DNA from: Petrotoga sp. 9PW.55.5.1
GTDB lineage: Bacteria; Thermotogota; Thermotogae; Petrotogales; Petrotogaceae
Direction: 5' to 3'
Assembly (NCBI RefSeq): GCF_003265365.1
Contig: NZ_AUPM01000046.1
Location: forward strand, 1 to 64,000
DNA length: 64,000 nt
Position numbers and translations under genes: made by a program. This document shows positions 21,964 through 57,795 of the stretch, piece after piece. The stretch's first letter is position 1, and the number at the start of each line of letters is the position of its first letter. The notes below the pieces were generated by a model, which saw only the letters and a list, made by a program, of their open reading frames with translations, searched no databases and had not been told where the DNA came from.

Positions 21964-24645
21964 TTACTTTTGCCATCTTCTACCTACGTTTATATCAACT
22001 TTTAGAGGCACATCTAAAGACACTACATTCTCCATAGAATCTTTAACGATAGTTTTAACCTTCTCTTCTAAACTTTCGGGCAATTCGACAACTACCTCAT
22101 CGTGTACCTGTAAGATGAGTTTTGCTTGTTTGGGAAGTTCTTGATATAACTTAATCATAGCTAACTTCATTATATCAGCAGCACTACCTTGAATAGGCGT
22201 ATTTATAGTTATCCTTTTCAATTCTGATTTACCGGTTTTAATACTTTTAATAAACCTCTTTCTTCCAAAGATGGTTTCTACATAACCTTCTTTTTGAGCA
22301 TTTTTTAAACATTCATCTTGGAATTTTTGGACATTTTTGTAAGTTTCAAAGTATCTTTCCATGAAATGTTTTGCATCTTCAACAGAAATAGATAAGTTCT
22401 TGGCTAAACCGTAAGGAGAGGAACCATAAACGAGAGAAAAGTTAACAACCTTTCCTGCCCTCCTCATGTTATAGTTCACCTCTTCCAACTTCACTCCAAA
22501 TATTGCAGCCGCAGTTAATGCATGTACATCTTCGTTATTTTTAAAAGCCTTTATCAATGTTTCATCTTTCGCTAGGTGAGCTAAAACTCTGAGCTCTATC
22601 TGTGAATAATCCGCACTAAGTAAAACATATTCTGATTTTTGAGCTTTTACAGTTCTTCTAATCCTTTCCCCCTCTTCTTCTCTAATAGGAAGGTTTTGCA
22701 AATTAGGATCACTGCTACTTAATCTACCCGTTGCTGTACCGGTTTGATTGAAAGAGGTATGAACTCTTCCGGTCTTTTTGTTAACCAACTTTGGAATAGC
22801 TAATATGTATGTAGATAAAAGTTTTTGATATTTTCTGTACTCCAAAAGCTTTTCTACTATTGGATGTTCATCTCTTAATGCTTCTAAAGAATCTGCATCG
22901 GTTGAGTAGGAACCGCTTTTGGTTTTTCTTTTTCCTTTTAAGCCTAATTGTTCAAAAAGCAATTCTCCAACTTGTTTTGGTGAGTTTGGATTAAATTCAT
23001 ATCCCGATATATTTTTCATTTCCAACATCAAAGAATCCAATTTAATGTTGTACTCTCCTTCCAAAGTTTTCAGCTCTTCTAAATCAAAAAAAACACCGTT
23101 CATTTCCATCTCTGATAATACATTTATGGTAGGTATTTCTATTTTTGATAATAGTTCAGATAGCTTAAATTCTTCTAACTTTGGCTTTAGCACTTCAAAA
23201 AGTCTGTAAGCTATATCCGCATCTTCACCTGCATATTCAACAACTTTTTGTTTATCGATATCTCCAAGGGTTAAAAGTTTTATATCTTTTCCCATAACTT
23301 CTTTATACTTTGTAGTTCTATAATTCAAATACTCTTTAGCCAAATCATCCATATTAAACCTGCGACTGTCAGGGTTTAGAAGGTATGCCGCTATCATAGA
23401 ATCAAAAAAAACTGATTTTAGTTCTAACCCATTTACCTTTAAAACAGAGATATCGTACTTCAAGTTTTGCCCTATAATCTTTTTTTTGTTCAATATATGT
23501 ATCAATTCACTTGTTATTTCCCATCTTTTTGGATCTTTGTATAGGTATAAAAAATATCCTTCAAAAGGTTTTACAGACAAAGCTATTCCAACTAAATCTG
23601 CTTGATATGGATCTAAAGACGAAGTTTCAAGGTCAAAGGATACTATTTCGTTTTTCTCTATAATTTCAAATAATTCTTTGTAATTTTCTGAGGTATATTG
23701 ATTGTATTTTCCTTTGTAAGAATAATCCATTTTCTTTTTTGATTTTATTTCTTCTTTTTTGGTTGAGGTATCTGTAATATCTAATTCTTTCAATATAGAA
23801 CTGAATTCTAACTCTTTTAACAGATCTTTCAGTTCGTTCATAAATCCTTTATACACTATTTCTTCGTCATTGTATATTTGCTCAATAGGGGCATCTGTCA
23901 TTAATTGAACTAACTTTTTACTAAGATACGCAAAATCTTCCCCTTCTTTTAGTTTTTTTTGAAGAGAACCCTTTATTTTATCAATATTTCTAAACACATC
24001 TTCAATAGATGTATACTCTTTCAACAATTGTTGAGCTGTTTTTATTCCTACCCCTTTTACTCCCGGTATATTATCAGCACTATCGCCCATCAATGCTAGT
24101 AAATCGACAATTTTTTCGGGAGGCACTCCCATTTTATTTTCAACTTCCTTTGCGTCGTATTTAACGATTTCAGTTATCCCCTTTTCAGGTCTTAGAATAT
24201 ACACGTTATCTTTTACAAGTTGCATCATATCTTTATCTGAAGTGATTATATATACGTTATCATATTTTTCTTTTTTTTTCTTAACTATTGTAGCAATAAC
24301 GTCGTCTGCTTCATAATTATCCATAACAACCAACTTAACACCTAAACTTTCAATTAATTTGTAGATGTAAGGGATTTGTTCAATATAATTTTCAGGAGTT
24401 TTTGGCCTTTGTGCTTTGTATGTTTCTAGTAATTCGTTCCTATATGTTGTAGTCTTTTTATCCATAACGAATATGACAGAGTCTTCACCATTTCTGACGT
24501 ACTCTTTCAGAAGTTTTAAAAGCATTCTTGTAACCCCATAAATAGCATTAGTTGGAAGTCCACTTGATGTACTCATCCAATCGCCTAAAGCAAAAAAAGC
24601 TCTATAAGCGATTCCAGAGCCGTCTATTAAGTATAAATTTCCCAA
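21964..24645 (-). CDS. polA: DNA polymerase I
   Basis: Repair and primer-removal polymerase. Three domains are complete: 5'-3' nuclease (about 1-290, with DNYEADDVIAT and MGDSADNIPGVKGVG), 3'-5' exonuclease (about 315-490, with intact SFDLETSS and EDADIAY carboxylates), and polymerase (about 500-893, motif A DYSQIELRVLA, motif B RRAGKVVNFSLVYG, motif C VHDEVVVE). 893 residues. Proofreading residues look intact, in contrast to the replicative PolC in this window. About 100 gene-free bases separate it from rimO. Confidence 0.98.
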   Translation of the reverse strand: MGNLYLIDGSGIAYRAFFALGDWMSTSSGLPTNAIYGVTRMLLKLLKEYVRNGEDSVIFVMDKKTTTYRNELLETYKAQRPKTPENYIEQIPYIYKLIESLGVKLVVMDNYEADDVIATIVKKKKEKYDNVYIITSDKDMMQLVKDNVYILRPEKGITEIVKYDAKEVENKMGVPPEKIVDLLALMGDSADNIPGVKGVGIKTAQQLLKEYTSIEDVFRNIDKIKGSLQKKLKEGEDFAYLSKKLVQLMTDAPIEQIYNDEEIVYKGFMNELKDLLKELEFSSILKELDITDTSTKKEEIKSKKKMDYSYKGKYNQYTSENYKELFEIIEKNEIVSFDLETSSLDPYQADLVGIALSVKPFEGYFLYLYKDPKRWEITSELIHILNKKKIIGQNLKYDISVLKVNGLELKSVFFDSMIAAYLLNPDSRRFNMDDLAKEYLNYRTTKYKEVMGKDIKLLTLGDIDKQKVVEYAGEDADIAYRLFEVLKPKLEEFKLSELLSKIEIPTINVLSEMEMNGVFFDLEELKTLEGEYNIKLDSLMLEMKNISGYEFNPNSPKQVGELLFEQLGLKGKRKTKSGSYSTDADSLEALRDEHPIVEKLLEYRKYQKLLSTYILAIPKLVNKKTGRVHTSFNQTGTATGRLSSSDPNLQNLPIREEEGERIRRTVKAQKSEYVLLSADYSQIELRVLAHLAKDETLIKAFKNNEDVHALTAAAIFGVKLEEVNYNMRRAGKVVNFSLVYGSSPYGLAKNLSISVEDAKHFMERYFETYKNVQKFQDECLKNAQKEGYVETIFGRKRFIKSIKTGKSELKRITINTPIQGSAADIMKLAMIKLYQELPKQAKLILQVHDEVVVELPESLEEKVKTIVKDSMENVVSLDVPLKVDINVGRRWQK

Positions 24646-54355: not shown

Positions 54356-54431
54356 AAGTTTGAGATAATCTACATAAATTCCCCTTCATGTGAACTGCCC
54401 CATGTCAAGTAGACACAAAAATTAATAAAAA

Positions 54432-54530
54432 CTATATACATTTGGATGCTTGGTTTCTGAACTCAACAGGAGCCAAGCATCCGAGTTTTTTCTGGAACCT
54501 ACGGTTGTTATAAAATCGGTTTAATTCCCC
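54432..54530 (-). pseudogene. C-terminal fragment of an IS3-family transposase
   Basis: About 30 codons read LNRFYNNRRFQKKLGCLAPVE then FRNQASKCI, the end of an IS3/IS150-group OrfB integrase, where FYNN.R.Q.KLG..sPVE is conserved. The frame upstream (to 54659) is repeat-derived and not transposase. So the gene was interrupted by the palindromic element, and the rest is lost. Confidence 0.72.
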
Positions 54531-54683
54531 TTCCTCGAAGGGGTGGATGCAGCGTTTTATGCTGCAGACGGGGTAGTCACTCTTTAATTTGCTTTTAACA
54601 AATTGAAAATCCAATTCAAAAGCAACTACCCCGTCTGTGACAATAATCGTCACAGCCACCCCTTCAAAAAGGGGAATTAAACC
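54518..54683. repeat. Two head-to-head palindromic repeat copies
   Basis: Outer arms GGTTTAATTCCCC (518-530) and GGGGAATTAAACC (671-683) are exact inverses. Copy one has hairpin CCCCTTC/GAAGGGG, then TGCAGC-GTTTTAT-GCTGCA (548-565). Copy two has instead TGTGAC-AATAATC-GTCACA (636-654). GACGGGGTAGT and ACTACCCCGTC flank the middle. The second hairpin has a different sequence from copy one and stays fully paired. The spacer 578-624 also has TTGCTTTT...AAAAGCAA arms. Confidence 0.85.
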
Positions 54684-54758
54684 TCCAAAGTAGTTTTGTA
54701 ATTTTTATTAATTACGTGTCTACTTTGGAGGTATCATATCATAGAAGGGGAATTTATG

Positions 54759-54842
54759 TTTAATTCAAAATCAGCTCTCTTTCTTGTGACCACACCCCAG
54801 CCGCGATAAAAACTTCACATCATATCCTCTCAAGAAGAGAAT
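54759..54842. other. Spacer between the scar and the polC stop
   Basis: On the minus strand this is directly downstream of the polC stop codon. I translated all three frames and found no PolC C-terminal sequence. It contains a GC-richer stretch (CCCCAGCCGCGA on the plus strand) unlike its surroundings. No feature recognised. Confidence 0.5.
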
Positions 54843-57734
54843 TCAAAGTGTAATTATTTCATCAATATATACTTGTTTTTCTCTTTTTTTTGTTATTTTT
54901 TCAGCACTTTTATCACCTATATTTTTAACTTTTTTTAGAGGAATTCTTAAATATCTTCCTTCTATTTTAAAGGTATTTGCTTCACTTTTGTAAAGATCAG
55001 CTCTTAAAAAATCATATCCTCTTTTTCTCATCTCATAAGCGGTTTTAAGTGTGGAATAAAAATTAGATTCTTCATAATTGTGCTGATATTCGTTTTTTGA
55101 TAATTTTTTTATTTCGTTTAGTGTTGAATCTTCATCCATTATTATATCGATATCAAAAAATCTTCCTCTAACTGTGAAGTATACACTGTAAAATTCAAGT
55201 GGATAGTAAAGCTTATAATATGCTATCTTATATGCCATTATCATATAAGCGATTGCGTGAGCCTTTGGGAATAAATAATGAATTTTTTTTAGAGAATCAA
55301 GGTACCAGTTTGGAGCTTTTGAATTTTTTATCGCATTTAACTCTTCATCTGTAAGTGCCTTACCTTTTCTTACTTTTTCCATAATTTGAAACGCTGTTTT
55401 AGCTTCTACACCGAAGTGCTCCAACATGATTAATATGTCATCTCTGCAACTAACGATTTGTTTTATATCTGCCATGTTTTTAAAAACTATTTCCCTAGCG
55501 TTATTGAACCATATATTTGTACCATGAGCCAGTGAGTTAGTTCTACATAGGTCGTAGAAAGTTTTTGGTTTTGTTTCACTGAGCATTTTATGAGAAAACG
55601 GTGTCCAGACTTCTGGAACTCCCAGAGTTCCTATTTCCGTGTTTATATCAGAAAGATCTACACCAAGTTCTTTTGTGGAAGCAAAGAGCGAAAGAACCTT
55701 CTCATCATTCATCGTTATATTGTTATAATTATAATCTGTTAAGTCTCTAAGCATTTTTAAAAAAGTTGGGCCATCATGAGATAAAACATCTATTTTCAAA
55801 AGATCATTTTCTAAGACTTTAAAGTCATAGTGAGTAGTAACGATTCCTATTTCTGGGGAGTTAGCTGAGTATTGATATGGAGTAAAATCATGAACATCAT
55901 ACTCTTTTGGAATTACTATCATTGCTGAAGGGTGCTGACCTGTATTCAATTTTACTCCTTTGATTCTTTGGGAAACCCATATTAGTTGTGCTAAATTCAT
56001 CTCTTCGTTTTTGAAATAGTTGTAGGCAATTTTTAAAGCATTATATCTCGATATTGTACTTATTGTTCCTGCTTTGTAGCAGCGGTCTTGTCCAAACTTT
56101 TTTTCCAAAAATCTTTGCATTTCGTTGAAGATATCGGCAGAAAAGTTAATGTCTATATCTGGGATCTTTTCTCCGGAGTATCCCATGAAAACTTCAAAAC
56201 TGATGTTATGACCATCCGAACTTAAAATAAAATCGCATTTTGGGCATCCTTTTTCTTTTAAATCAAATCCACTCAAATTAAGATCTTCACTGAATTCTAT
56301 ATAGCCACATCTTCGACAGTAATAATGCGGAGGTAGTGGATTAACTTCTGTTATACCTAAAAGGAAAGCCACAAAAGAAGATCCTACTGAACCTCTTGAT
56401 CCTATAGGGTATCCAATTTCAAGTGATTTCTTTGCCATTTCTGCTGATGTAAGAAATATTACTGAGTATCCATTTCCTATTATGCTGCTTAATTCCTTTT
56501 CAATTCGTTCAATAATTTTATGATGTAATTTTTCACCATATATCTTTTTAGCGTTTAAATATACCGTTTCTTTCAAGTTTTTATCGATTTTAGGAATTTT
56601 TGGCACTTTCAACTTAAAATCAAAAGGTGCAATTTGTTCTATCTCATCTGCAATTTTATTTGTATTTTTTACTACTATTTCTTTGGCTATCCCTCTTTTT
56701 TTGAAAATTTTAATGGCTTCATCCAACATTTCCGAGGTATTTCTTAAATAGTTTATATTTTGACTAGGTTTTTTTGGATTGTTTTTGTTAGAGGTTCCAA
56801 TTATCATGGCATCTAGATATTCTTTATCTTCTTTCATTAAATAATGTACATCTCCAGACATTACAAGAGGTTTTTTAAGATTTTTAGAAAGTTTATATAT
56901 TGTATTAGAAAAATCAATTATTTTAGATCTTTTTAAGTTTAAATCGTTGTAGCAATCTATTGGGAAAATTTCTATATAATCAAAAAAAGAAATCCAATCA
57001 TTTAAATTATCTGATGGAAGATTGTTTAAATAGCTGTACAACAAAAATCCATCCAATGAAGAACCAATCAACAACCCTTCCCTTAAGTTTTTTAAATCAG
57101 AAAACGATATTACCGCTTTTTTATTTACAACGTTCATATGAGATATAGTTATTATTCTGTATAGATTTTTTAATCCTTCTTTATTTTTAACCAATACGTT
57201 TATGTTTTTTGTTATACCTTTTTTCCCTTCATGTACGTTCAATTCACACCCGAATATCGCTTTAATTCCTTTCTTTTTTGCATATTCGTAAAAATATGGA
57301 ATAATATGAATATTTTCATTATCGGTTATAGCGACCGCTTTTTGCCCATAATAAGAAATTTGGTCCACTAACTCTTGCATATCTAAAATTGAAGTTTTTG
57401 TACTCATCTTTGAATGCGTGTGAAGTTCAACTCTTTTATCAACAGAAAGATCATGGTTTATTATTGGAACCGCTGGTTTTATTTTTTCAATATTTAAATA
57501 AAAAGTTCCTAATTCGATATCGTATTCTAACCTACCTTCAAATCTAAACCATTTGCCTTTTGTTAATTCATTTTCGGATTTACAAATAAAAGAATAAGTG
57601 TAATCAGTTATAATTAGGGAATAAATACCTTTATTTTCCTCAATACGGAATATCTTACCTTTTATGCTTATTTGCTTATTTTGAAACTCAGATTCCCTAC
57701 CTTTTATCTCTAAAAGATTTTCAAAACAGTACAT
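54843..57734 (-). CDS. polC: PolC-type DNA polymerase III alpha subunit lacking the exonuclease domain and C-terminal tail
   Basis: C-family replicative polymerase. Residues about 15-90 form an OB domain and about 97-300 a PHP domain starting RVELHTHSKMST. In usual PolC a DnaQ-type exonuclease of about 170 residues is inserted right after the GCELNVHEG-like position (167-170). Here the chain runs straight on to KKGITKNINVLVKNKEG. Palm: PDIDINFS with D526 and D528, and D649 in KIDVLSHDG. Zn knuckle Cys473/476/497/500. The protein stops at about the last helix-hairpin-helix, some 28 residues before the usual QLSLF clamp-binding end. 963 residues versus about 1,370-1,440. It may be the main or a secondary replicase. 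Confidence 0.85.
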   Translation of the reverse strand: MYCFENLLEIKGRESEFQNKQISIKGKIFRIEENKGIYSLIITDYTYSFICKSENELTKGKWFRFEGRLEYDIELGTFYLNIEKIKPAVPIINHDLSVDKRVELHTHSKMSTKTSILDMQELVDQISYYGQKAVAITDNENIHIIPYFYEYAKKKGIKAIFGCELNVHEGKKGITKNINVLVKNKEGLKNLYRIITISHMNVVNKKAVISFSDLKNLREGLLIGSSLDGFLLYSYLNNLPSDNLNDWISFFDYIEIFPIDCYNDLNLKRSKIIDFSNTIYKLSKNLKKPLVMSGDVHYLMKEDKEYLDAMIIGTSNKNNPKKPSQNINYLRNTSEMLDEAIKIFKKRGIAKEIVVKNTNKIADEIEQIAPFDFKLKVPKIPKIDKNLKETVYLNAKKIYGEKLHHKIIERIEKELSSIIGNGYSVIFLTSAEMAKKSLEIGYPIGSRGSVGSSFVAFLLGITEVNPLPPHYYCRRCGYIEFSEDLNLSGFDLKEKGCPKCDFILSSDGHNISFEVFMGYSGEKIPDIDINFSADIFNEMQRFLEKKFGQDRCYKAGTISTISRYNALKIAYNYFKNEEMNLAQLIWVSQRIKGVKLNTGQHPSAMIVIPKEYDVHDFTPYQYSANSPEIGIVTTHYDFKVLENDLLKIDVLSHDGPTFLKMLRDLTDYNYNNITMNDEKVLSLFASTKELGVDLSDINTEIGTLGVPEVWTPFSHKMLSETKPKTFYDLCRTNSLAHGTNIWFNNAREIVFKNMADIKQIVSCRDDILIMLEHFGVEAKTAFQIMEKVRKGKALTDEELNAIKNSKAPNWYLDSLKKIHYLFPKAHAIAYMIMAYKIAYYKLYYPLEFYSVYFTVRGRFFDIDIIMDEDSTLNEIKKLSKNEYQHNYEESNFYSTLKTAYEMRKRGYDFLRADLYKSEANTFKIEGRYLRIPLKKVKNIGDKSAEKITKKREKQVYIDEIITL

Positions 57735-57766: not shown

Positions 57767-57795
57767 ATTATACATAATTTTACTTACAATGTCTA
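57767..57795 (-). promoter_or_regulatory. Promoter of polC
   Basis: On the minus strand TAGACA (795-790), 17-base spacer, TATAAT (772-767). A further TATAAT at 754-749 is too near the start to act. Confidence 0.7.

Follow-up and report, generated by a model that had tools for sequence, protein, structure and literature searches.

An exonuclease-less second PolC in Petrotoga: a pared-down paralogue of within-family origin

The window analysed here is a stretch of 64,000 nucleotides of the Petrotoga sp. 9PW.55.5.1 genome (contig NZ_AUPM01000046.1), and it carries on its reverse strand a second PolC gene, which we name polC2 (Table 1). PolC is normally a high-fidelity replicative enzyme. The start codon of polC2 is preceded by a Shine-Dalgarno sequence (GGGGGA), and the upstream DNA of the orthologues has a sigma-70-like promoter with the same position and spacing as its own. 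Between polC2 and a bmp gene lies a MITE-like element whose ends are perfect 16-bp inverted repeats (ACATAAATTCCCCTTC), with a further 15-bp pair nested inside. Pfam matches were obtained for the PHP (PF02811, residues 103-225), the PolIII core (PF07733) and the fingers (PF17657), and PF14579 (HhH) gave a truncated match of 25.4 bits, just below the cut-off. Among models of the whole protein, the NCBIfam PolC model NF001688 is passed with 1036.8 bits (cut-off 873), but TIGR01405, which expects an exonuclease, is missed (960.6 against 1043.45) because of the absent parts. The hallmarks of PolC are nevertheless kept, namely an OB domain N-terminal to the PHP, the zinc module and the palm aspartate triad. 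On comparing polC2 with 45 other PolCs, the four cysteines C473, C476, C497 and C500 as well as D526, D528 and D649 were found to be invariant, and together with the domain matches this bears out the initial annotation, made from the sequence alone, in which OB, PHP, palm and zinc-knuckle were present with the catalytic aspartates intact. Also, sequence comparison showed Y820, F822, H826 and Y830 to be the counterparts of all four residues (Y1274, F1276, H1280 and Y1284) given for the dNTP/inhibitor pocket of E. faecium PolC (PMC12592400).

Table 1. Coordinates of polC2, its parts and the other features discussed (positions in the window unless a contig is given)
Feature	Position	Strand	Remark
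polC2, exo-less second PolC, 963 aa	54843..57734	-	ATG start; the ORF matches these bounds exactly
Probable promoter, TAGACA-17-TATAAT	57767..57795	-	-35 at 57790-57795, -10 at 57767-57772
OB domain, residues ~18-92	57459..57683	-	Model strands 21-87
Continuous PHP domain, residues ~100-300	56835..57437	-	Metal-site His139 replaced by Asn
Junction, residues 169-175	57210..57230	-	Short hairpin turn; ~200 exonuclease residues here in full-length PolC
Zinc-binding cysteines C473, C476, C497, C500	56235..56318	-	By residue comparison; zinc in 3f2b
Palm catalytic aspartates D526 and D528 (PDID)	56151..56159	-
Third catalytic aspartate D649 (KIDVL)	55788..55790	-
Fingers segment Y820-F822-H826-Y830	55245..55277	-	Sequence compared with PMC12592400
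Truncated HhH region	54870..55013	-	In other PolCs an HhH tail and a C-terminal clamp motif follow; polC2 stops before them
MITE-like element, 388 bp	54372-54759
DnaE, short, 814 aa	34873-37317	+	Same window
Pol I with 3'-5' exonuclease	21964-24645		Within the window
DnaQ-like protein, 210 aa, intact DEDDh motif	G000:C3:13782-14411 (L057)		Contig differs from that of polC2

Set against the full-length PolC encoded by this genome, polC2 has nothing to match a stretch of 201 residues, and in the alignment the break comes after its residue 175. An exonuclease HMM run over all six frames around polC2 gave zero matches, and elsewhere in the genome PF00929 had just two matches, to the full-length PolC and to a DnaQ-like ORF that stands alone. 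The AlphaFold model (mean pLDDT 88.3, pTM 0.82) has a continuous PHP in which strands 158-168 and 175-182 are linked by a short hairpin turn at 169-174. This turn coincides with the place, between the third and fourth PHP strand, where the exonuclease is inserted in PolC (PMC12592400). Alignment and predicted structure thus agree with the clean loss near residue 170 proposed initially, and with all six frames negative the description of polC2 as a PolC without its proofreading exonuclease stands. The best solved relative is Geobacillus kaustophilus PolC (3f2b), which has the same fold without the exonuclease (TM 0.92 by Foldseek). It may be noted that in 3f2b the exonuclease was taken out for crystallisation (PMC12592400), whereas polC2 lost its own by evolution.

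The distribution of polC2 was determined by scanning 103 Thermotogota genomes with a profile of the exo-less junction. Orthologues, with contiguous matches above 230 bits, were found in 11 genomes and all remaining matches were at or below 112 bits. The carriers are all six Petrotoga genomes, including P. mobilis SJ95 (G002, recognised by its glycogen-branching-enzyme gene, whose coordinates are exactly those given in PMC6629080), and five genomes from three other Petrotogaceae genera (all that were examined there), while four sister genera of the family are without polC2. The 11 copies have a single origin, as they form one clade in a tree of 88 proteins. In a more careful tree of 34 proteins the polC2 clade (support 100/100) is nested within the Petrotogaceae full-length PolCs (100/98) as sister to the full-length PolC of genus g6 (99/96). 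The tree set includes 46 exo-less PolCs of Clostridia and Negativicutes, and a clade shared with the clostridial ones was rejected (log-likelihood 614 worse, p-AU 7e-8), so that a transfer of polC2 from exo-less Clostridia is ruled out. The nesting and the AU rejection argue that polC2 arose by duplication within Petrotogaceae and then lost its exonuclease independently of the clostridial exo-less PolCs. A phage origin was also rejected, since phage matches stay below 60% identity (best 34-39%) and none was placed in a tree as a close relative. On comparing two g3 species (G007 and G013, loci L041 and L044), the first ~9.4 kb including polC2 is 93-99.9% identical, as opposed to 81% for full-length polC and 84% for the gyrA-lexA region, and we read polC2 and its neighbours there as a recent recombination tract. 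A milder contrast of this type is seen between G003 and G004 (98.6% versus 91.4%).

The exonuclease is not the only part missing. Beyond what had been noticed initially, the NTD and the last ~35-40 residues (the second HhH half and the QISLF-type clamp motif) are absent and the PHP site is damaged. No polC2 copy whose N-terminus is available has the NTD; nothing NTD-like precedes the OB domain of polC2, as against more than 200 residues ahead of it in the full-length paralogue. At the other end, the copy of genome G008 ends in QIPLF and that of G015 in KLKLF, whereas the Petrotoga and g3 copies stop earlier and were found to have no pentapeptide-type clamp motif. The tail was lost later than the NTD and exonuclease. 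Two causes of the tail loss, a recent frameshift and the repeat element next to polC2, were considered and rejected, as there is no remnant of the tail downstream of polC2 and the other Petrotoga and g3 copies have the same truncation. Clamp binding through an unrecognised motif is possible. In the PHP the changes differ by sub-lineage, being N139 in Petrotoga, N139 and R297 in g3, N295 in G008 and S139 in G015; the polC2 of the window keeps Asp295. His139 and Asp295 are both intact in 45 of 45 clostridial exo-less PolCs, so that these may still proofread via the PHP, which the Petrotogaceae copies probably cannot. The PHP damage strengthens the earlier suggestion of low fidelity, which is a reasonable inference. 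Also, about 17 positions that are invariant in other PolCs are altered in Petrotoga polC2, some of them adjoining the active site (G604A, G652S), and this could mean weakened catalysis. The most divergent polC2 copies are those of genus g8 (G012 and G015), in which even the GSRGSVGSS motif, invariant elsewhere, has changed. A separate set of exo-less PolCs comes from Candidatus Fermentithermobacillaceae and related Bacillota MAGs (L059, L060, L062 and L071), whose open frames of ~1145-1160 aa suggest that the N-terminus is reduced there too.

The genome (2.08 Mb, 99.9% complete) encodes three C-family polymerases, which are polC2, DnaE and a full-length PolC. The last of these (1389 aa, contig C18) has an intact DEDDh exonuclease and a tail ending in QISLF. 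Therefore the replicative PolC of the organism is normal and polC2, as its paralogue, is not the replicative enzyme. Of the two findings that would have changed the initial reading, the exonuclease was not found in another frame, but a full-length PolC is indeed present and makes polC2 a paralogue; a need for a separate proofreader hence does not follow, while the reading as a specialised polymerase stands. The DnaE of the window has no Pfam PHP match at 1e-8, in agreement with the reduced PHP reported for Thermotogae DnaE3 (PMC3919608). The idea that polC2 substitutes for an absent Pol I was rejected, as Pol I is encoded in the window. One Petrotoga genome has in addition a second family-A DNA polymerase (G004:C3:165362-166549, open frame of 663 aa). 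The proofreading-type exonucleases identified in the genome of the window are those of full-length PolC and Pol I and the stand-alone DnaQ-like protein. If polC2 were a second replicative polymerase at the fork, for example taking over part of DnaE's job in primer extension, its largely intact PolC core and its presence in every Petrotoga genome would be expected. Yet we consider this unlikely, since DnaE is present as well, Petrotoga polC2 has neither NTD nor clamp motif, polC2 has evolved at about three times the rate of full-length PolC, and half of the genera of the family are without it.

The genome search for a stand-alone DnaQ-like gene, also proposed initially, returned one candidate, which is followed downstream by a PIN-domain-like and then a PhoH-like gene. 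With its intact DEDDh motif this protein might be thought to form a two-subunit proofreading polymerase with polC2, as DnaE does with epsilon, but such a pairing seems improbable. Clear orthologues of the DnaQ-like protein occur in 19 of 21 family genomes, including members without polC2, so the two distributions do not match, and nothing else ties the gene to polC2, which sits on another contig. Its matches include not only epsilon but also DinG-type exonucleases and the exonuclease of PolC, and polC2 has no part that takes the place of the insertion it lost.

polC2 is under purifying selection. Its dN/dS is 0.12-0.16 among close relatives; in the comparison with the sister genus it is 0.07, the value also obtained for full-length PolC. 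The domain losses, the PHP damage and the changes at otherwise invariant positions could be taken to mean that it is no longer a working polymerase and is either in decay or kept as a scaffold that binds DNA. We regard this as quite improbable given these dN/dS values, the conserved promoter, the catalytic aspartates that are invariant in all copies and the reading frame that is undamaged in 11 of 11 genomes. An assembly or frame error in the window as the source of the missing exonuclease is practically negligible, since 10 other genomes, the complete one of P. mobilis among them, have the identical architecture and junction and no frame contains an exonuclease.

Across the lineages compared, no conserved operon, fixed neighbours or mutasome-like partner was found beside polC2; ImuA/ImuB-type partners do not adjoin it and the genome has no Y-family homologue. 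Repair-type genes lie beside polC2 in three lineages: the window has nfo, coding for a TIM barrel like that of AP endonucleases, g3 has a gene for an SbcD-like phosphoesterase and G008 an HhH-GPD (nth-like) gene. These are suggestive of a repair role, though chance may account for them. A TTATACATACGTATA-like stretch spans the promoter of polC2 and is conserved among the orthologues. As a shared operator it was rejected, since repair genes are not preceded by it and its counts equal those of the reversed-pattern control. LexA is encoded in the genome, behind a gyrA-like sequence, but no operator shared between polC2 and DNA-damage genes was found and damage control of polC2 was not detected. 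Among family members, a clear Y-family polymerase was seen only in G012 and G015 (both g8). Its absence from Petrotoga, g3 and G008 makes gap filling or lesion bypass a plausible niche for polC2. However, most relatives without polC2 also have no Y-family polymerase, and therefore the absence alone is no proof of replacement.

We consider the best explanation, and a reasonably probable one on present sequence evidence, to be that polC2 is an old within-family PolC paralogue pared down to a proofreading-free accessory polymerase for gap filling, repair or lesion bypass. PolC would have been duplicated inside Petrotogaceae and the copy reduced stepwise. The NTD and exonuclease are missing from all checkable copies; the PHP metal site would have been damaged independently in the sub-lineages, and a further loss, that of the HhH tail and beta-clamp motif at the C-terminus, is confined to Petrotoga and its sister genus g3. 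With the C-family polymerase site retained whole (palm aspartates, fingers pocket, zinc module and OB), polC2 would be an active polymerase that does not proofread. It would not be tethered to the clamp or tau in the usual manner and so would act distributively, filling gaps, repairing DNA or bypassing lesions, leaving chromosome replication to full-length PolC and DnaE. As no shared operator and no conserved mutasome-like partner were found, the case for repair or bypass is built on the architecture and on what is missing from the genome. A bolder version, which we offer as tentative, is that in this one thermophile family PolC has been turned into a translesion or gap-filling enzyme that does Y-family work, having shed both proofreading sites, NTD and clamp tethering while keeping and retuning its active site. 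If true, polC2 would be the PolC counterpart of DnaE2 by a separate evolutionary route. Like polC2, the error-prone accessory polymerases of the DnaE2 (ImuC) type are an extra C-family copy with a damaged PHP and no known DnaQ partner, but the likeness is in the way of working only, as polC2 is of the PolC and not the DnaE lineage and has no ImuA/ImuB-like neighbours.

PolCs without an exonuclease have been described before. According to Timinskas et al. 2013 (PMC3919608), 6% of PolCs are without Exo, all from Clostridia or Negativicutes save an extra Thermotogae copy, and one Thermotogae genome is tabulated as 2xPolC + DnaE3. By elimination this genome is probably that of Petrotoga mobilis, and the case resembles ours in being a second exo-less PolC beside PolC and DnaE3. 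There the extra copy is counted in one clause, whereas here it is a clade of four genera with PHP damage and loss of NTD and clamp motif; the independent origin, PHP damage, clamp-motif loss and four-genus range are not in the portions consulted of that paper. The exo-less PolCs of Clostridia and Negativicutes (Moorella, Anaerovibrio and others) lack the exonuclease at the very position in the PHP where polC2 does. They are of separate origin, however, and unlike Petrotoga polC2 nearly all of them have a C-terminal clamp motif and most have N-terminal sequence. As the existence of an extra exo-less Thermotogae PolC has been known since 2013 (PMC3919608), the surprise is limited. As a natural thermostable PolC without both proofreading sites, it can serve as a probe of the share that the polymerase site has in PolC fidelity. 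Loss of the PolC exonuclease has happened independently and with different outcomes, the PHP residues being kept in Clostridia and damaged in Petrotogaceae, where polC2 would be a case of a replicative polymerase made accessory.
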